Shown: positions 8,079-53,645 of the stretch, in pieces | How the letters are laid out: every line of letters starts with the position of its first letter | Numbering within the stretch: the stretch's first letter is position 1 | Source: a virus | IMG/VR virus record: IMGVR_UViG_3300048033_000859 | Coordinates: 1 to 53,645 of that record | Reading direction: 5' to 3' (one strand) | Length of the DNA: 53,645 nucleotides | Position numbers and translations under genes: made by a program | The notes under the pieces: generated by a model | The model's database searches: none | The model's input: the letters and a program-made list of their open reading frames with translations, nothing else | Told to the model about the DNA's origin: nothing

Positions 8079-8147
8079 ACATAAAAGGCCCATAGTCTTA
8101 TTGACTACAGGCCCTTAAAATTATATAATTTGTGTAACCAGTGGAGA

Positions 8148-21356: not shown

Positions 21357-21386
21357 ATTATAACCCCTTATACAGGGTCCTTACAA
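21357..21386 (-). promoter_or_regulatory. Promoter with CCCT-N5-AGGG dyad (HlyC-like gene)
   Basis: On the leftward strand TTGTAA, an 18-base spacer, TATAAT. The spacer is GGACCCTGTATAAGGGGT, a dyad of the same kind as in the capsid, integrase and accessory promoters. The -10 ends about 20 bases before the ATG at 21335. Confidence 0.75.
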
Positions 21387-29673: not shown

Positions 29674-30723
29674 TTACGCTAAGTTATAATTTGCTGTGAA
29701 CAGCGCCTCTGGGCGAAGAATCTTGCGACCAAAGAGGTTGAGGCCGCGAACAACGTCAGCGAATGTCTCAGGAGAACGGAAGCTCTCTGTTTTTGAGATT
29801 TGCTGGGCTGTTGCAACTGCACCCATATGACCCGCACAGACAACTCCAAAATTAGTCGTTGAGCCGCTTGCCGCTGCAGTTCCAGCACCAGTGCCTTTGT
29901 AAGGCAAGTTGTTGGATTTATACAGTTTAAAGCCACGGATCAGGCCAGATACCACACGACCATTACGGAGCATGTCACCTGCGTCTTGACCACCAGCGAA
30001 GTCATTATTGATGAGCTTGCTGTTTTCGTCTTGAAGAAGCTCGTAAAACACGGGGTCAGCGATCAAATAACGATCTTCTGTAGGCACGTTTGCTTGGTCC
30101 ATCTTACGGGCAATACGGTTAAGTACTGCGAGTGGAGATGTAACTGCGCCAGAGCCACCATTTGCAGCAAGTGGGATAGAGTTACCCGCTGTGCCGCCGA
30201 ACTCACCCGCTTTAATTTTATTGTTAGCCAGTAGTTCATCATTACCCGCCGCTGCGTCTGCTTTATCGCCTGCAGATGCTGTACGAGCGGCCCATGCGGA
30301 ACCATTCCAATCGTAGCCCATCATGTAACCCAATACGTTTTTATCAAACGCATCTTTCAGGTTATAAGCGGCGTTGTCGGACGCTAAAGATAAGAAATTA
30401 TGGTGGGATTGCTGAGTTTCAATGTCATCGACCTGGAACTGAAACGCATTGGCTTGGTCTATAACCAAGGAAAAGTCTGCATCGGTCAATTCCTGAGAAC
30501 TCATCTCAGTGCCGCGTTTGTAGTCCACGATATCAACACTAGGTTCTTTAAGAATGCGAACTGAATCGCCCATGTTGCTGATTTCACCAAAATAATCGGT
30601 GTTCGTGCATGCTTCTACAATAGACTCCTTCCTTAGAGCTAATTGTACTTTTTTGCTGTAAATTACTGGGCTGAAGGCACCTGCCGACAGTTGGTTGTAC
30701 CCATTTGCGCGTGGAAATGCCAT
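29674..30723 (-). CDS. Major capsid protein
   Basis: 349 residues. Located directly after the scaffold and before the tail adaptor. The sequence (VQLALRKESIVEACTNTDYF, then GDSVRILKEPSVDIVDYKRG, then DPVFYELLQDENSKLINND) is characteristic of HK97-fold capsid proteins of marine podoviruses. The start follows an AAGGAG site. Expression is likely high: a near-consensus promoter lies about 260 bases upstream with a structured leader between. Confidence 0.85.
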   Translation of the reverse strand: MAFPRANGYNQLSAGAFSPVIYSKKVQLALRKESIVEACTNTDYFGEISNMGDSVRILKEPSVDIVDYKRGTEMSSQELTDADFSLVIDQANAFQFQVDDIETQQSHHNFLSLASDNAAYNLKDAFDKNVLGYMMGYDWNGSAWAARTASAGDKADAAAGNDELLANNKIKAGEFGGTAGNSIPLAANGGSGAVTSPLAVLNRIARKMDQANVPTEDRYLIADPVFYELLQDENSKLINNDFAGGQDAGDMLRNGRVVSGLIRGFKLYKSNNLPYKGTGAGTAAASGSTTNFGVVCAGHMGAVATAQQISKTESFRSPETFADVVRGLNLFGRKILRPEALFTANYNLA

Positions 30724-30753
30724 GATTAAATCTCCTTCGATGGCAATTAGAGG

Positions 30754-30769
30754 AACCCCTAAATAGGGG
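30754..30769 (-). promoter_or_regulatory. Hairpin in the capsid leader
   Basis: CCCCTAAATAGGGG is a perfect 14-base dyad about 30 bases before the capsid start codon. It matches the CCCTA/TAGGG arms of other regulatory sites in this genome but here is in transcribed leader sequence. It could affect translation or be a protein-binding site. Confidence 0.4.
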
Positions 30770-30790
30770 CGCTAAAAACCAGAAGTGGAT

Positions 30791-30895
30791 TCAAAGGGCA
30801 GAGAACGAGTAGGGTGCGGGTACGTCTAGTGTGTGAAAGCTAAATACACGCTCTAGAGTAATCGGGCCTAGCGCCTCTGGTAGACTTCTTGCCAT
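30791..30895 (-). CDS. Possible leader peptide upstream of the capsid gene
   Basis: A 34-codon frame starting ATG at 30895 (MARSLPEALGPITLERVF...) lies inside the long capsid leader. The ribosome site (AGAAGAT) is weak and no family is known. It could be a real microprotein, a regulatory leader peptide or chance. Confidence 0.25.
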   Translation of the reverse strand: MARSLPEALGPITLERVFSFHTLDVPAPYSFSAL

Positions 30896-30952
30896 ATCTT
30901 CTGAATATAAATGAGAAATAGAGGGTGGGCTAATGCGGCCTCAGTTTCCAAT

Positions 30953-30966
30953 CCCCCAACTGGGGG
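30953..30966 (-). promoter_or_regulatory. Second hairpin in the capsid leader
   Basis: CCCCC and GGGGG separated by four bases form a strong short stem about 20 bases after the expected transcription start. No U-tract follows, so it looks like a 5' stabilising hairpin rather than a terminator. Confidence 0.4.
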
Positions 30967-30986
30967 AGAAACCCTTTATAACTGGT

Positions 30987-31016
30987 ATTATACCATCCTT
31001 TAAAGGGTCCCTGCAA
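30987..31016 (-). promoter_or_regulatory. Major capsid promoter
   Basis: Leftward TTGCAG, an 18-base spacer, TATAAT, with TGG before the -10 giving an extended -10. The spacer GGACCCTTTAAAGGATGG contains a palindrome (CCTTTAAAGG) in the same place as the dyads of other promoters here. Together with the next 260 bases it forms the gap between scaffold and capsid. Confidence 0.8.
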
Positions 31017-40162: not shown

Positions 40163-40171
40163 ATTATACCA
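40163..40171 (-). promoter_or_regulatory. Extended -10 promoter of the DUF1127 gene
   Basis: Leftward TGG-TATAAT, with a weak -35 (AACAAC or GAACAA) 17-18 bases upstream. The preceding bases (ACCCTTTAA...GATGG) resemble the capsid promoter spacer. The expected start of transcription gives a leader of about 25 bases with a perfect Shine-Dalgarno. Confidence 0.65.
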
Positions 40172-40212
40172 TCACTGATTAAAGGGTTGTTCCCATTAAA
40201 TGGGCATACCCG

Positions 40213-41280: not shown

Positions 41281-41559
41281 CTACCTGTCTTCATGGAGTT
41301 TCTTTGCAATCCTCGCCGCATCCCTAGTAGCTTTAGGGGGCGAAGAGCTTATTTCTGTGTCGAAGAAATCTGCATACCCTGTGAAGGGCTGGGCGTTCCT
41401 ACGAGCTTGATCTTGGGTGATTAGGCCCTCTTCTACTAATAACTCCCTCGTCCTAGCTAGGGACAGCCTGACGCCTGTGTTGGCCTCAATAGCTGCGCGA
41501 ATGTAGTGGAGATTAATTGTGTACTTGTCGGAGCCTGTACTAGATGGTGCTCTAGTCAT
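41281..41559 (-). CDS. Unknown small protein
   Basis: 92 residues, mostly helical (YTINLHYIRAAIEANTGVRL, then SLARTRELLVEEGLITQDQA, then ATRDAARIAKKLHED). It has a good promoter upstream (TTGACT-18-TATAAC). The helix-rich N-terminal half could be a small DNA-binding domain, but no family is recognised. Confidence 0.65.
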   Translation of the reverse strand: MTRAPSSTGSDKYTINLHYIRAAIEANTGVRLSLARTRELLVEEGLITQDQARRNAQPFTGYADFFDTEISSSPPKATRDAARIAKKLHEDR

Positions 41560-41578: not shown

Positions 41579-41608
41579 GTTATAACATGGAGATTATCTG
41601 TTAGTCAA
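41579..41608 (-). promoter_or_regulatory. Promoter upstream of the 41.5 kb gene
   Basis: Leftward TTGACT, 18-base spacer, TATAAC. A CCCT-N4-AGGG dyad (41619-41630) sits just upstream of the -35 box rather than within the spacer. Confidence 0.65.
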
Positions 41609-41671
41609 CTAAAAGAACCCCTAGACAGGGACCCTTTTATATGGTAAAATCAGATTGTCCTCTGGGGGTTA

Positions 41672-42082
41672 CTATATATACAGAGACAGTCTTTCCTTTA
41701 CCTCGCCATACGGAACATCAAGTCGATAGGCGAGTAGCCTGATAGCATCAGATACCGTTGCATCTTGTTTAAGACGATTAGCCCTCTGAGAGATCACCCG
41801 AACATTTCCCTTAATATAACCTTTGGTAGGATTAATCCTGTCAAGGGATGGACTATTATTGCTCCCACCCTGCCCCTTCTTGAAGTAATCAATTGGGGTA
41901 TTCATCACAGGGCAGTTTAAGGGGAAGGGGGATAGGTCATCGACTTCAAGATCGAATTCTATCCCCTCCTGTTTTGATTTGTTCTGGACTACCGATAGGG
42001 TCTGTCTGAACTTTAATCTGCAATACGCATCAAATAGTTCAGGTACGTTAAGGTGAGTGAGTTCATCTGGATCATACTGCAT
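41672..42082 (-). CDS. HNH-like endonuclease
   Basis: 136 residues from ATG 42082, chosen because GAGGGTG lies 6 bases upstream; two further in-frame ATGs lie up to 42097. The C-terminal half carries SPSLDRINPTKGYIKGNVRV and ISQRANRLKQDAT, the LDRI...GY..GNV...S.RAN pattern of a phage HNH-type nuclease family. FPLNCPVMNTPIDYF precedes it. The role could be DNA processing or homing. It overlaps the upstream gene by 11 bases. Confidence 0.68.
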   Translation of the reverse strand: MQYDPDELTHLNVPELFDAYCRLKFRQTLSVVQNKSKQEGIEFDLEVDDLSPFPLNCPVMNTPIDYFKKGQGGSNNSPSLDRINPTKGYIKGNVRVISQRANRLKQDATVSDAIRLLAYRLDVPYGEVKERLSLYI

Positions 42083-42416
42083 CGCCATCACCCTCAAAGA
42101 AGCGCATCAGGTGGTCTTTACCGTTGACGTAGTCTTCTTGGAGTTCTGCAGCCTTTAATACACGCTTAGAAGCTTCTGAAAGGGCATGCCCCATAGTGTA
42201 CAGAGAGCTATATCCCTCGTACCCTAAGTCATCACGGCAAGTCTCTATTGCGGAATCTAGTAATTCCCCAAAAGGTACTGCCACGACATTAGCATCGTCC
42301 TCATCTATGGGAGTATAAGTGAAACAAGAGATGGTTAGGATACCATCCTGGTCTACTTCTAGTTCATGTTCGATGTCCAACTCAAAGTCGAACCGTATTG
42401 TTTCTGTGTTCGTCAT
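42072..42416 (-). CDS. Unknown acidic protein, first gene of the late/leftward main block
   Basis: 114 residues from ATG 42416; a TTG start at 42449 is also possible. Acidic, with a beta-rich N terminus (IRFDFELDIEHELEVDQDG, then ILTISCFTYTPIDEDDANVV) and a helical C terminus. It lies about 60-90 bases downstream of a consensus -35 promoter. No family is known. Confidence 0.62.
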   Translation of the reverse strand: MTNTETIRFDFELDIEHELEVDQDGILTISCFTYTPIDEDDANVVAVPFGELLDSAIETCRDDLGYEGYSSLYTMGHALSEASKRVLKAAELQEDYVNGKDHLMRFFEGDGDAV

Positions 42417-42476
42417 ATCACCACTGCTCTTATAGGTGACCCTACCCAATCAGCCGTTATTATTATTATTGGGAGT

Positions 42477-42505
42477 ACCCTACAGCACCATATCTGGTAT
42501 GTCAA
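42477..42505 (-). promoter_or_regulatory. Promoter of the leftward main block
   Basis: Leftward TTGACA (consensus -35), 17-base spacer, TAGGGT (poor -10). It borders the large gene-free region and precedes the first gene of the block that leads to terminase. Confidence 0.55.
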
Positions 42506-43102
42506 CTCTTAGGGGTACTATTACAACCCCTATTACGTTTACAATCTCCACGGGACCCCTATTCTAGCCATACTACGGAGTTTACATACTAATTAATTCT
42601 GGTCCGTATCCCCCCATGCTAACCCTAGGCGGTTTACTGTCCAATTTTCCTTATTTTGTGCATAGACTGTATACGATATCGTACCCCACCCCCCATGGCG
42701 CTTGGCCCCCCCGATTTCTTTCGAGCATTGCTAACCTTCTGATTTTATTAGGGTAATTATCTTAGGAAAGATACGAGAGAGGGAAAATCTTCAGGGAATT
42801 TATAGAGAAAAGAAATGAAAGAGAATTTCTGCAGGTTTATCAAAGAATTAACCCTGTGAAACTCATAACTTTTTGGTAACAGAATAAGAAAAAAGGGCAG
42901 AGATTTTGCGTGTGACAGAAAATTTAAGTCGTGTGGTGCCGCATGGCGATGCACTCTATTAAACCTGAGATATCTCTAGGACTAATCTACAGGGATAACT
43001 AGGGGGGGTTTAACTCTTTAGGCCACTACCCTAGCCAAACTACAGGGGCTAGCTTGTGTGGCCCTCTCTCTGGTCTATCGGCGCGGGATATAACAGGGCA
43101 AT
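42506..43102. other. Gene-free region (about 600 bp)
   Basis: No convincing gene on either strand. It contains a 10-base palindrome (ACGATATCGT, about 42672-42681), several long C runs (about 42612-42718), and a purine-rich, A-rich + strand segment (about 42770-42840). It lies between the accessory cassettes and the late block. Candidates are a replication origin, a packaging site or a control region; I cannot decide between them. Confidence 0.6.
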
Positions 43103-47269: not shown

Positions 47270-47298
47270 CCTATAACCCCTAGCATAGGGTCAATTAA
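47270..47298 (-). promoter_or_regulatory. Island promoter with CCCTA-N3-TAGGG operator
   Basis: Leftward TTAATT, 17-base spacer, TATAGG. The spacer holds CCCTATGCTAGGG (47278-47290). The same dyad (different centre) fills the integrase promoter spacer. The -35 is weak, so an activator could be needed. Confidence 0.55.
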
Positions 47299-47342
47299 CT
47301 ACCCCTTGCAAGATACTTTTTTTCTGAAATTTTTTTAGATTT

Positions 47343-47371
47343 TTGCTTGCGCCAACAAGAGTCAGTATATA
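47343..47371 (+). promoter_or_regulatory. Rightward early promoter
   Basis: TTGCTT, 17-base spacer, TATATA. It is divergent from the island promoter; the transcribed leader includes a GACGCGCCAGTA repeat before the small regulator-like gene. Confidence 0.65.
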
Positions 47372-47407
47372 AGGTCCCTTCCATTGACCCCGCCAAAGCA
47401 AGTCTAA

Positions 47408-47440
47408 GTTATATATTACTCTTGACGCGCCAGTAGCTAA
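47408..47440. repeat. Direct repeat flanking the 67-residue gene, left copy
   Basis: GTTATAT, then CTTGACGCGCCAGTA at 47421-47435. The core ACGCGCCAGTA also occurs after the gene. Confidence 0.75.
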
Positions 47441-47461
47441 AAATTGAAGGGACTATCAAAA

Positions 47462-47665
47462 TTGAACTATAAAAGAACAAGAGCAGAAGTACACCAATGG
47501 ATAGAGGGCCTTCAAGAGCTACTGGAGTACGAAGATGGGACCCAACAACTAATTCTTCTAAAGTCAGGCGAACTAGTGGTCATTCCTTGTGGCGAAGAAG
47601 AGGCTGACGGGTTGAGCGTTACTATCGCTACCCACAGTGCTGACATTATTAAGCTTACAGGGTAA
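47462..47665 (+). CDS. Small regulator-like protein at the divergent promoter region
   Basis: 67 residues from TTG 47462 (preceded by GAAGGG); an in-frame TTG at 47444 adds six residues. Basic helix at the N terminus (NYKRTRAEVHQWIEGLQELL), then YEDGTQQLILLKSGELVVIP. It lies at the point where leftward and rightward units diverge, between two direct repeats, followed by a strong terminator. The position suits a regulator, but no helix-turn-helix is certain. Confidence 0.55.
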   Translation: MNYKRTRAEVHQWIEGLQELLEYEDGTQQLILLKSGELVVIPCGEEEADGLSVTIATHSADIIKLTG

Positions 47666-47672
47666 AGGTTAC

Positions 47673-47699
47673 GTTATATCTTAACGCGCCAGTAATTAG
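47673..47699. repeat. Direct repeat flanking the 67-residue gene, right copy
   Basis: GTTATAT followed by CTTAACGCGCCAGTA. The core is identical over 11 bases to the copy 259 bases to the left. Confidence 0.75.
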
Positions 47700-47707
47700 A
47701 ATAAAAG

Positions 47708-47740
47708 AACCCCCCAAGGATTGCTCCGAGGGGGGTTTTT
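47708..47740 (+). terminator. Terminator after the small regulator-like gene
   Basis: AACCCCCC, 14-base loop containing a small inner stem, GGGGGGTT then TTT. It separates the regulator unit from the integrase. Confidence 0.85.
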
Positions 47741-47872
47741 GCTGGCTAAGACAGGGAGGAAATTCACCAGCAGCATTAACAGAAGTCGGGGTGGGTCATT
47801 AGCAACCTCTGTTATACATATCTTACACAAGGTCTACACAGTGGTCAACTACTAATTGTGTATCAAAAGGTC

Positions 47873-47901
47873 TTGCTTATACCCCTAACATAGGGTATTT
47901 A
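47873..47901 (+). promoter_or_regulatory. Integrase promoter with CCCTA-N3-TAGGG operator
   Basis: TTGCTT, 17-base spacer, TATTTA. The dyad CCCTAACATAGGG (47883-47895) lies exactly between the boxes and ends at the -10. About 130 bases upstream of the promoter, back to the preceding terminator, carry no gene. Confidence 0.7.
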
Positions 47902-47933: not shown

Positions 47934-49046
47934 ATGGGAAATATGTTAGCACCGTACATTCAAGTGTACAAAAAGAAGGGGAAATCTGAGTACAGGTTTC
48001 AACCAAAGAAAGACATGCGGATAGCCTTGGGAGTGCATGGATTTACAATGCATGATGAACAAGAGGCTCTAGCGTATAGCGCAACCGTTCAACAACTGTA
48101 TTACGACTACAGTCGCAAGAAAAAGAACGCTATTGCGATCAACGAAAGGACTTTGTCTGGCCTTGTTCATTGGTTTTATCAGACCAGTGAGTTCAAAGAG
48201 CGTAAGCCTAACACGCAGAAGAGCTATAAGGAGCAGCTAGGTCTGATATGTAAGGTCACCCTGCCGCGCAGTAAGACCCCTCTAGGTGCTTTGATGGTAT
48301 CCACGATGGATCGGGAGAGGGCTGACGCTTTAAAACAGTTCTTGACAGAGCACTACTCATATCACCGAGCTTATATGTGCATAAAGACAATTCGTCGGTT
48401 GTTCTACGTTGGCAGCGTTTATGGGAAGGGCATCAAGTTTAACCCGTTTGCAAAGATGGACCTGAAAACACCCGCTAGTCGCAAGGAACGCTGGGAGCAG
48501 GGCGACATCTATCGTTTTATAGATAAGTCTGACGAACTAGGGTTTCACGGTTTAGGTACACTAGCTCTAGCTTGTTATGATTTAGCTCAGAGGCCTGGAG
48601 ATATACGCCAACTGACTTGGGAAAATGTTGTAGGCAATCGATTGATCTTCACCCAAGAGAAGACCGAGCAGCCTATGAATGTTGTTATGAGCGACGAACT
48701 AGTAAAACGCTTATCAACAATCAAACGTGTCAACAGTACCAACAGGATTGTGTACCATGTAGACCCACGAAATAAAAAAATCTGTGAGTATGATAACAGA
48801 AATTACAATTGCCACCGCAAGTTAGTTTTAGAGGCACTGAACCTCCCAGAGAAATTACAACTACGGGACCTTCGTAGAACTGCAGCGTCCGAGATGGCTA
48901 ACGCTTCTTGCACCGATGATGAAATCCGAGAGGTCACTGGACACAAGACCCGTGACGTTCTGTCTATCTACCTAGTTCAAGATGGAACTGCAGGGGACAA
49001 CGCCCAAGATAAACGGAGGCAGAAGTATGGACAAAAAGGTGCCTAG
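47934..49046 (+). CDS. int: Tyrosine integrase
   Basis: 370 residues from ATG 47934, 6 bases after GGAGGA. Catalytic marks are CYDLAQRPGDIRQLTW (first Arg), LRDLRRTAASEMANA (second Arg; the usual His of HxxR is Arg here), VTGHKT (His) and SIYLV (Tyr nucleophile). It recombines the phage attachment site with a host tRNA gene. The attP core lies about 0.85 kb downstream, after thyX. It is transcribed from an operator-bearing promoter. Confidence 0.9.
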   Translation: MGNMLAPYIQVYKKKGKSEYRFQPKKDMRIALGVHGFTMHDEQEALAYSATVQQLYYDYSRKKKNAIAINERTLSGLVHWFYQTSEFKERKPNTQKSYKEQLGLICKVTLPRSKTPLGALMVSTMDRERADALKQFLTEHYSYHRAYMCIKTIRRLFYVGSVYGKGIKFNPFAKMDLKTPASRKERWEQGDIYRFIDKSDELGFHGLGTLALACYDLAQRPGDIRQLTWENVVGNRLIFTQEKTEQPMNVVMSDELVKRLSTIKRVNSTNRIVYHVDPRNKKICEYDNRNYNCHRKLVLEALNLPEKLQLRDLRRTAASEMANASCTDDEIREVTGHKTRDVLSIYLVQDGTAGDNAQDKRRQKYGQKGA

Positions 49047-49859: not shown

Positions 49860-49890
49860 GTATTGCTAACCCATTGATTTACTTAGATTT

Positions 49891-49930
49891 TGGTTGCGGG
49901 AGTAGGATTTGAACCTACGACCTTCAGGGT
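49891..49930 (-). other. attP core: 3' end of an initiator tRNA-Met gene
   Basis: On the leftward strand this 40-nt segment reads as the 3' part of a tRNA. It contains the end of the anticodon stem (CCCTG), variable loop AAGGTCG, T arm TAGGTTCAAATCCTA and acceptor end TCCCGCAACCA. A72 before the discriminator and the CCC of the anticodon stem point to initiator tRNA-fMet. No 5' half follows, so it is not a functional tRNA gene but the site where the phage DNA restores the host tRNA upon integration. Confidence 0.88.
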
Positions 49931-49965
49931 CTAAGTAGCACTTTATAAAACAACAACGTATGGTG

Positions 49966-50001: not shown

Positions 50002-50063
50002 GGGGCTAGACAGATGCCCCATCAATATGTACCCTAAACCCTGTTGTGACAGGGGTTATATAT
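50002..50063 (+). promoter_or_regulatory. Dyads and possible promoter before primase
   Basis: Two inverted repeats: GGGGC...GCCCC (50002-50020) and CCCTGT-tgtg-ACAGGG (50039-50054). The latter is directly followed by TTATATATATG. It resembles the operator-bearing promoters, but the TATATA is so close to the ATG that a standard transcription start would fall inside the gene. It may be an operator or a leaderless start. Confidence 0.4.
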
Positions 50064-50846
50064 ATGAGTTACTATCAGGATCAGTTAAGTACTATCAGTA
50101 ACTATAGGGTCAACTCAGGAGAAACTATAAGGGTTAACTGTCCGTTCTGTGGTGGTAACAAAACCATGAGTATTACCCAGATCGATGGTAACCTTAAATG
50201 GAACTGCTATAAAGCTTCATGTGGCTCCCGTGGAATAAATAATGTGGGTAGAAATATTCTTGAAATACGGAATGCTCTAAACGGCATTAAAAACGTACAG
50301 AAACGTAAAACTTCAGACATTCCAGAAATATTATCATCGCCGCTACTGCGTGAGGATACCTACAATTACCTTCTAGAAAATAATTGCCTTCAAGCATATC
50401 TAGATGGTGCTTGCAGAATAGAATACAGCCCCAAAGAACACAGAGTATTGTTCTTCAATTCTGATAGTAGTGGATGTGTCGGTAGATCACTAAAAACGAG
50501 ACTGAAACCTAAGTGGAAGGTTTACGGTGAGACTACAAACTTATTTACAGTGGGGCATTGTGATCCCGTAGTTTTAGTTGAAGATGCGGCATCCGCCTGT
50601 GCGGTTTATGCCACGAAGAAATACACTGGGGTGGCTTTGTTAGGAACAAATCTGTCGTACAAACAGAGAACATCCTTAAAACAGAGAGATAATATCACAA
50701 TCGCCCTTGACAAGGACGCCTCAAGGAAGGCACTACAAGTAGCGGCACAACTAAGAGGGGGAAGAAAGTGTGCTGTAAGGTTCCTTGCAAGGGACCTCAA
50801 GGAGTATCCCCCAGAAAGGTTATTAAGGGTGATTGAAGATGGGTAA
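50064..50846 (+). CDS. DNA primase (zinc finger and TOPRIM)
   Basis: 260 residues from ATG 50064. Zinc finger CPFCGGNKTMSITQ and NCYKASC at the N terminus. TOPRIM domain with VVLVEDAASACAVYAT (Glu) and ITIALDKDASRKAL (DxD). It makes RNA primers for replication. T7 fuses primase and helicase, but here the DnaB-like helicase is a separate gene 430 bases downstream. Confidence 0.85.
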   Translation: MSYYQDQLSTISNYRVNSGETIRVNCPFCGGNKTMSITQIDGNLKWNCYKASCGSRGINNVGRNILEIRNALNGIKNVQKRKTSDIPEILSSPLLREDTYNYLLENNCLQAYLDGACRIEYSPKEHRVLFFNSDSSGCVGRSLKTRLKPKWKVYGETTNLFTVGHCDPVVLVEDAASACAVYATKKYTGVALLGTNLSYKQRTSLKQRDNITIALDKDASRKALQVAAQLRGGRKCAVRFLARDLKEYPPERLLRVIEDG

Positions 50847-51045
50847 AAAACTCAGAGCAATTTGTTTGATTGATATTGATGTGGACAGCTTCCGTGAGGC
50901 TGGCGAAGAAGAAGCGAAGATAGAGACACTTCTGAACGGATATATGAAAAGTAACGATGCCGTAACAGAAGTAACTTTTGATGTTCGTGACCGTAGAGGA
51001 ACCCAAGTTCCAGACCTAAAGCAAATGAAATTAAAGAATGCGTAA
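50839..51045 (+). CDS. Unknown small protein between primase and helicase
   Basis: 68 residues from ATG 50839, overlapping the primase end by 8 bases. N-terminal KKLRAICLIDIDVDSFREAG, with acidic and basic segments and VTFDVRDRRG. Unknown; could be a replication cofactor. Confidence 0.65.
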   Translation: MGKKLRAICLIDIDVDSFREAGEEEAKIETLLNGYMKSNDAVTEVTFDVRDRRGTQVPDLKQMKLKNA

Positions 51046-51244: not shown

Positions 51245-51276
51245 CGGACCCCTAAAGCTTTCGCATAGGGAAAACC

Positions 51277-52497: not shown

Positions 52498-53645
52498 TGA
52501 TGATGCCCTAATTTATGACTTTGAAGTTGGAACTAGCTGGGTTGCGGAGGGGGTCAGAGATAATACCCCACATAACCCAGACAACATGCTCGTAACCGCA
52601 CAATACTGTCACTTAACTAACCTTCAAGACAAAGAGCAGTGCCTGGAGGAGCTACGCACCAAGACCAAGACAATTGTAGTATATCATAACGAAATGGATA
52701 AGTCCGTTAAGCCTGATATTAGCCCTTTCGTTGAGCTTTATAATAAAGTTGGTGTGGTAGTTGCACACAATAACAAGTTTGATGAGATGTGGAGCCGTGC
52801 GCTAGGTATACCTTTACCTAATAACAGATTCTGCACCATGATATGTCAGTACTTGTTAAATAAAGGCCAGAGAAAGCCTTTGAGCCTCGCAGAGGTAGTC
52901 AAAGTGTACGGCCTCACAGAGAAGAAAACCGACCTTACCCACGATGAATTTAAAAACGGTAAAGAGTACTATGAAATAGCACTTGATAACGTGATTGAGT
53001 ATGGTGAAGGCGACATTCAAAGTGCTGGTGAGTTGTTCTTGGCACAGCTAGAGGAGCTAGAGAAGGACTCTAATAAATCCCTAAAGGCTGTGGTGCTAGG
53101 TACTAATGATATGACTGATGTAGTCATAGAAATGGAAATGAACGGCATCAAGATTGATCGTGAAGCTCTAGACGCTGTAGAGACTGAATTTCAACAGGAG
53201 TCAGATCAACTAGAACGCGACATTCAAAGAATGACTAGAGAGGTTATGGGGGATAGGCCCTATAAAATGTCTTCTGGGCAGGACTGCTCCGTAATTCTCT
53301 ACTCTAGAGACTTCATAAGCAAACCTCACAAGGCATCGTGGAAAAAGATAATGAACCTTGGTGTGGATGAATACACTAAGAAGCCCCGATATAGACCCAC
53401 CATGAAGGCCTCTCAATTCTCCCGCGAAGTTCAGGAACACTTTAGAGTTGTGAACAGAGAGGTAGCTCACCACTGTCATTCTTGCAACGGAACGGGAATG
53501 ATCCGTAAAGTTAAAAAAGACGGGACCCCTTGGAAAAACCTTACAACCTGCCTCAACTGCGAGGACAGAGCGGGGGTTATCTACGAAAATACAAAGACCG
53601 TCTGTGGCTTTAAGCTTGTACCGATGGGTAGGCAAAATTCATCGT
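52487..53645 (+). CDS. polA: DNA polymerase I family A, N-terminal part (gene continues at the left end of the window)
   Basis: Starts at ATG 52487 inside the helicase end. 3'-5' exonuclease motifs are readable: Exo I IYDFEVGT (Asp 11, Glu 13), Exo II AHNNKFDEM, Exo III EYGEGDIQSAG (Y-x3-D). A region of unknown role follows (about 200-325), ending at the first Cys of the DnaJ-type finger. It reads off the window end without a stop and continues at base 1 in the same frame. Confidence 0.95.
   Translation, partial: MLYNDDALIYDFEVGTSWVAEGVRDNTPHNPDNMLVTAQYCHLTNLQDKEQCLEELRTKTKTIVVYHNEMDKSVKPDISPFVELYNKVGVVVAHNNKFDEMWSRALGIPLPNNRFCTMICQYLLNKGQRKPLSLAEVVKVYGLTEKKTDLTHDEFKNGKEYYEIALDNVIEYGEGDIQSAGELFLAQLEELEKDSNKSLKAVVLGTNDMTDVVIEMEMNGIKIDREALDAVETEFQQESDQLERDIQRMTREVMGDRPYKMSSGQDCSVILYSRDFISKPHKASWKKIMNLGVDEYTKKPRYRPTMKASQFSREVQEHFRVVNREVAHHCHSCNGTGMIRKVKKDGTPWKNLTTCLNCEDRAGVIYENTKTVCGFKLVPMGRQNSS
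53465..53645. repeat. Terminal overlap repeat, right copy
   Basis: Same 181 bases as the left end with two synonymous differences (53497 A, 53518 A). Confidence 0.95.

Follow-up and report, generated by a model that had tools for sequence, protein, structure and literature searches.

The 53,645 bases analysed here (hereafter the window) make up an IMG/VR virus record, and the gene order and proteins match those of HMO-2011-type podophages. Its first and last 181 bases (1-181 and 53465-53645) form a terminal overlap of 98.9% identity, so the window is probably a complete, circularly permuted genome in which the DNA polymerase gene is split by the ends. Judged by the coat protein, the nearest named relatives are the Roseobacter phages CRP-235, -212, -738, and -3 (58-61% identity). 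The window carries the features by which temperate HMO-2011-type phages are recognized, namely an integrase and an attP core that corresponds to the 3' end of a host tRNA (Table 1). Integration of CRP-3 into the host tRNA-Met has been shown by sequencing and PCR (PMC6918029), and since the window has the same attP core, a role in lysogeny, presumably through repression, is plausible for the dyad sites described below. No relatives of the window integrase were found in IMG/VR. A prophage search of genome contigs by terminase returned a single 11-kb contig (L134), which is assigned to a Rhodobacteraceae bin. Matches to window and CRP proteins cover most of what follows its first 3.6 kb, and no identity was obtained for those first 3.6 kb, so that the contig provides no evidence of integration.

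Table 1. Positions of the sites, promoters, and genes considered in the window.
Feature	Position	Strand	Description
Post-DNA-polymerase promoter	1196-1230 (promoter 1196-1224)	+	TTGATA-GGGACCCTACTTAATCG-TATAGT; inverted half-site downstream
HlyC-like (tail/lysis operon) promoter	21357-21386	-	TTGTAA-ggACCCTgtataAGGGGt-TATAAT; N18 spacer holding a dyad
Capsid promoter	30987-31016	-	TTGCAG-GGACCCTTTAAAGGATGG-TATAAT; N18; spacer kept as GGACCCTTTNNNNGGTGG in closest relatives
DUF1127 gene promoter	40163-40187	-	ACCCTTTAATCAGTGATGG-TATAAT
92-aa gene (candidate regulator)	41281-41559	-	pI 9.2; weak winged-helix similarity (HTH_33)
92-aa gene promoter	41579-41608	-	TTGACT-N18-TATAAC; near-consensus; no dyad in spacer
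Operator-like site	41617-41630	+	ACCCCTAGACAGGG; between back-to-back promoters
Half-sites before acidic 125-aa gene (42072-42449)	42500-42561 (half-sites 42510-42561)	-	three half-sites around a TTGACA -35 element
Island promoter dyad	47278-47290	-	CCCTATGCTAGGG; half-site ACCCCTA at 47276-47282 on + strand; in spacer of leftward promoter
67-aa acidic ORF	47462-47665	+	positional counterpart of CRP gp01
Integrase promoter dyad	47883-47895	+	CCCTAACATAGGG; half-site ACCCCTA at 47881-47887; in spacer
Tyrosine integrase gene	47934-49046	+	phrog_1, E 2.3e-26
attP core	49890-49932	+	43 bp, tRNA-3'-end-like; identical to CRP-235; 41 bp identical to CRP-3
Primase upstream dyad	50039-50054	+	CCCTGTTGTGACAGGG; CCCTGT-N4-ACAGGG
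Helicase upstream half-sites	51248-51270	+	ACCCCTA...TAGGG, inverted

An initial annotation had described a shared operator, CCCTA-N3-TAGGG and its relatives, inside several promoters. The exact dyad occurs solely at the two positions named there, in the island and integrase promoters, against 0.09 copies expected, and none of 100 shuffled sequences reached two; the first copy reads CCCTAGCATAGGG on the + strand, the earlier text having given the leftward strand. The form CCCT-N5-AGGG was found only at 21365, 47278, and 47883, all three noncoding. With looser gaps (N2-N5), CCCT/AGGG gave nine sites, five of them noncoding by gene boundaries in a genome whose noncoding fraction is 0.088 (p 5e-4); of the four counted as coding, one (at 1193) is situated where the 3' end of the polymerase gene meets the post-polymerase promoter, which it overlaps. 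ACCCCTA ranked first among all 7-mers for noncoding enrichment, with 12 noncoding copies versus 1.3 expected (p 8e-11, uncorrected for the testing of some 8000 7-mers) and three coding copies. Equal density inside genes, which would speak against shared operators, was looked for in this way and was not seen; ACCCCTA is a recurring site enriched between genes genome-wide, as dispersed immunity operators are. It recurs at or close to the promoters of the island, integrase, post-polymerase, helicase, and acidic 125-aa genes and between the divergent 41.6 kb promoters; the copies away from promoters comprise the three inside genes and one at 30755, which is part of what looks like an RNA hairpin in the capsid leader. 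Looser forms (ACCCT...) are present in the HlyC-like, capsid, and DUF1127 promoters. When dyads of 5-bp half-sites with gaps of 0-8 were enumerated blindly, ACCCC-N6-GGGGT ranked first in the window; the signal of the relatives was swamped by terminators and A/T-rich repeats.

The sites were located between the -35 and -10, or next to the core, of eight promoters (island, integrase, HlyC-like, capsid, DUF1127, post-polymerase, primase, and helicase) and upstream of the -35 at two more, and the spacers are mostly 17-18 bp, as is normal for sigma-70. Dyads do fill the spacers of the island and integrase promoters as described, and both promoters are weak consensus matches (TTAATT-N17-TATAGG and TTGCTT-N17-TATTTA). 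The proposed spacer dyad of the HlyC-like promoter fits the geometry TTGTAA-N18-TATAAT; its ACCCTGTATAAGGGGT sequence is also found in the close relative G005, and the CRP-212 counterpart reads TTGCTA-ACACTTAGTTAGGTGTC-TATAAT. For the capsid promoter the geometry (TTGCAG-N18-TATAAT) was borne out, but the palindrome CCTTTAAAGG itself is not conserved, the relatives L003 and L004 keeping GGACCCTTTNNNNGGTGG. In many relatives an inverted copy of the left part of this spacer lies some 50 bp downstream (TAGAAACCATTAG...CTAATGGTTTCTA in L018; also in L006), possibly as a second site or a read-through hairpin. The primase dyad lies before its gene as stated, but is a looser relative of the motif. 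The site said to stand beside the 41.6 kb promoter was found upstream of the -35 of the leftward 92-aa gene promoter, where it shares bases with the -35 of a divergent promoter that reads rightward. The latter (41622-41650, + strand, of the form TTGCCA-N17-TAAAAT) is conserved in several relatives and is directed antisense into an HNH endonuclease gene, and its transcript would begin with a small hairpin.

Sites absent from the initial annotation were located at the post-polymerase, DUF1127, 125-aa gene, and helicase promoters. The post-polymerase promoter has an own-spelled site in the same place in CRP-212, CRP-3, CRP-738, and G003; the DUF1127 promoter has the counterparts ACCTAATTAGGTGTGG-TATAAT (CRP-212) and GCACTTAACTAGGTGCGA-TATAAT (CRP-3); the half-site adjoining TTGAC before the 125-aa gene is also found in CRP-212, CRP-3, G003, and G005; and CRP-3 has GCACTTAGTTAAGCAC in the place of the helicase half-sites.

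Orthologous promoters in CRP-212, CRP-3, CRP-235, and CRP-738 were located by gene context. Conservation in related phages, on which the initial proposal was to be judged, was found in the placement of the sites at the same promoters and not in their sequence, each phage having its own spelling. The half-site is ACCCCTA in the window, ACACYTA in CRP-212, and GCACYTA in CRP-3, with a shared core TA-N2/3-TA; the outer bases vary among phages and the inner TA...TA is kept. The integrase promoters of CRP-212, CRP-3, and CRP-235 each show their own version. CRP-212 has ACACTTAGTTAGGTGT upstream of the integrase gene and an identical dyad in its HlyC promoter, with related sites in the DUF1127, post-polymerase, primase, and capsid promoters; its 50 kb hold three CACYTA-N2-TARGTG dyads versus 0.03 expected (in the integrase, HlyC, and DUF1127 promoter regions), and the window holds none. 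In CRP-3, GCACTTA or GCACCTA is present at the integrase, capsid, DUF1127, helicase, and post-polymerase promoters. Among 18 hand-aligned core promoters from four phages, the phage's own half-site beat the best foreign one in 16 and tied in two, a comparison that is descriptive, since those very promoters had served in part to define the half-sites.

The phage-specific spelling was evaluated by counting 7-mers common to different promoters within one genome, with genome labels shuffled within each promoter class, for nine orthologous promoter classes and up to ten genomes. The genomes shared 1295 7-mers internally versus 957 +/- 38 after shuffling (0 of 1000 shuffles; z 8.8), and gene-interior windows under the same test gave z values of -0.1 to 2.4. 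Four of the nine classes had been added after half-sites had turned up in them; with only the promoters named in the initial annotation and the window excluded, z was 2.1 for 6-mers, 2.6 for 7-mers (p 0.007), and 3.5 for 8-mers (p 0.002). Per-genome 7-mer sharing was strong in the window, CRP-212, CRP-3, G003, and G005 (a CRP-3 relative among them) and not significant in CRP-235, CRP-738, and contigs G002, G004, and G009; without the five standout lineages the pooled signal fell to a z of only 1.2-2.2. A phage-specific consensus is clear in some lineages and weak in five. In CRP-1, CRP-345, HMO-2011, CRP-207, and CRP-13, the capsid and post-polymerase promoters are without such dyads, and most are near-consensus; for these five relatives, in which no 92-aa gene was found, the label-shuffle z was 1.8 on fewer and partly different windows.

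The candidate regulator, a basic protein of 92 aa, has three predicted helices in residues 17-55 and no predicted wing. Its match to HTH_33 scored 13.8 bits, below the Pfam cut-off of 25, and weak matches to this family were obtained for six of 17 members of the 92-aa family (best E 0.018); fold searches with a model of the protein gave nothing significant. An ortholog is present in all tested phages of the group that carry the sites, and no match was found in CRP-1, CRP-345, HMO-2011, CRP-207, or CRP-13 (first 50 kb). It is the only family found that combines a DNA-binding hint with presence in all tested site-bearing phages and with no match in the five relatives whose promoters are without the dyads. 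Its core is strongly conserved although the operators differ, and only exposed helix positions vary by lineage. That the 92-aa protein binds the dyad sites is possible, and we put this forward tentatively. The architecture of its promoter could suit a repressor's own promoter, and an early lytic gene would look alike. A link between helix residues and half-site spelling, sought by eye, was unsupported, G002 pairing a window-like half-site with residues that differ. The sites co-occur also with further genes specific to the group, namely those for a 70-aa protein (50842-51045) and the acidic 125-aa protein, and the 67-aa ORF; no relatives of the 70-aa protein were found in an IMG/VR search.

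The 67-residue protein, which the initial annotation had offered as the nearest repressor candidate, was set aside as a regulator. It is acidic like its CRP gp01 counterparts (pI 4.1-4.9), the window protein has no helix-turn-helix match and no match to DNA-binding families, and a role as DNA-binding repressor is unlikely. A direct repeat, GACGCGCCAGTA / AACGCGCCAGTA, brackets this ORF at 47424-47435 and 47683-47694, and gp01 of CRP-3 and CRP-235 is bracketed in like manner (L083/L087, L085/L089). CRP-212 gp55 and CRP-3 gp56 (L088:1713-2378, L089:46-603) are homologous proteins with a helix-turn-helix and a coiled coil; they were rejected as the regulator, searches of the window, CRP-235, and CRP-738 having yielded no counterpart. 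No CI/Cro-type match was found among about 35 window genes scanned outside the large structural genes, some of them against one library only.

The initial proposal of one regulator with sites in the promoters of both arms and of the late genes is supported by the intergenic enrichment, the rarity inside genes, and the orthologous placement. We consider it reasonably probable that the dyads are operators of a phage-specific, phage-encoded dimeric regulator, most likely a lysogeny repressor, with the 92-aa gene as its likeliest source. Such a regulator would bind the inverted half-sites (ACCCCTA here), which at the integrase, island, DNA-replication, capsid, and tail/lysis promoters are placed between the -35 and -10 or next to the core; by covering the spacer it would block RNA polymerase, shut these promoters, and keep the prophage silent. 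Untwisting of the MerR type would not be needed because the spacers are mostly 17-18 bp, which is normal for sigma-70. The 92-aa gene, a candidate winged helix, would be the most likely regulator gene, and its near-consensus promoter, with no dyad in the spacer and the operator upstream of the -35, would stay on in the lysogen. The divergent promoter and the placement of the operator upstream of the -35 would, however, be compatible with an activator acting there as well. In related phages the promoters and the central TA/TA are kept and the outer operator bases have changed, which would make each phage respond solely or preferentially to its own regulator (heteroimmunity).

A phage-encoded regulator of another kind, a repressor or activator that times the lytic cycle through an early/late switch, would account for the sites at replication, capsid, and tail promoters besides that of the integrase, and for the place of the 92-aa gene at the head of leftward genes leading into the structural block; the operator upstream of that gene would suit an activator. 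However, the integrase and island promoters carry sites too, the group member CRP-3 integrates, and sites within normally spaced core promoters favour repression, so lytic timing in place of lysogeny appears unlikely. The dyads might instead be promoter parts read by a phage-modified RNA polymerase carrying a sigma-like or sigma-appropriating factor, as the similar distance to the -10 across many promoters and the coincidence of the right half-site with an extended -10 TG in several of them would suggest. Against this, the -35 and -10 remain mostly sigma-70-like, and the sites are symmetric, occur in both orientations, and lie also upstream of the -35 or past the -10; we regard it as improbable.

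Chance, terminators, or CCC/GGG-rich RNA hairpins are a still poorer account of the sites: some CCC/GGG inverted repeats are indeed terminators or leader hairpins (near 30756 and at 47710-47740), but shuffle expectations were 0.02-0.09, the half-sites lie in spacers upstream of the expected transcription start, and the same promoters of CRP-212 and CRP-3 carry differently spelled sites. Binding by a host transcription factor, which the infection of related roseobacters by these phages and the TA/TA core common to the phages might recommend, is hardly credible, because CRP-3, CRP-212, and CRP-235 all grow on host strain FZCC0040 yet differ in half-site; the contrast between CRP-3 and CRP-212 is clear and carries this argument, that of CRP-235 being weak. 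The dyad-free capsid and post-polymerase promoters of CRP-207, which also infects FZCC0040, speak against a host factor as well.

The operators of a phage-encoded regulator proposed here appear to be a variant of a known principle, that of dispersed phage-specific operators, because Cluster A mycobacteriophages and lambda/434 share its logic but differ in the form and spread of the sites. Cluster A phages (L5/Bxb1) have many sites per genome, a similar but non-identical consensus in each phage, and heteroimmunity, and the likeness lies in one regulator, dispersed sites, and host-sharing relatives that differ in specificity (PMC6550527). Sites of the L5 type are asymmetric, mostly in one orientation, and mostly outside promoters, where they block elongation, whereas the window sites are symmetric dyads on both strands, mostly in or beside core promoters, and do not have the form of stoperators; the candidate protein here is also only 92 aa long. 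With the CI-Cro systems of lambda and 434 the window shares symmetric operators within promoters, homologous circuits with different spelling, and, at 41.58-41.65 kb, a candidate pair of promoters that flank an operator. The operators of lambda are confined to two early promoters, whereas those here are spread across many operons including the late genes. C1 of phage P1 likewise has many operators at promoters over the whole genome, and its sites are asymmetric 17-mers; no homolog of C1 came up in the window. A dyad that fills the -35/-10 spacer is also typical of the MerR family, whose promoters need spacers of 19-20 bp and not the 17-18 bp that prevail here.

HMO-2011-type phages are reported to be dominant in the ocean and widespread there (PMC9038755). 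The main papers on the group make no mention of a repressor or promoter, and the other papers found to name HMO-2011 together with a repressor concern, judging by title, other phages. The sites offer a ready readout, with promoters and bases specified, together with a candidate gene, and they predict which of the phages growing on one host strain would exclude one another, which makes both lysogeny and immunity testable in a marine group of phages that is abundant. If confirmed, the 92-aa protein would represent a new repressor family. A fuller proposal, which we hold to be rather doubtful, is that phages of the HMO-2011 subgroup have a hitherto undescribed family of small (about 90 aa) repressors that set the operator spelling through a few exposed helix residues, that one repressor represses most operons including the structural ones, and that relatives on the same strain are heteroimmune through small half-site changes.

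The capsid leader contains the palindrome CCCCTAAATAGGGG near 30756, which looks like an RNA hairpin of this leader because relatives have unrelated hairpins in its place. The leader, about 250 nt long (30723-30985, - strand), is strongly conserved upstream of the capsid gene in L003-L039, with the conserved blocks ACCAG..GGCCC..GCACCC..CTGCC..CTTCTGG. It had no match in Rfam; covariation, with double changes in seven of ten predicted pairs, was seen together with a weak overall energy (-1.1 kcal/mol), and it is possibly a structured RNA. The best sigma-70-like match in the window, TTGACT-N17-TATAAT at 8101-8129 (+ strand), points rightward in the gap between converging gene blocks, antisense to the end of the leftward operon.
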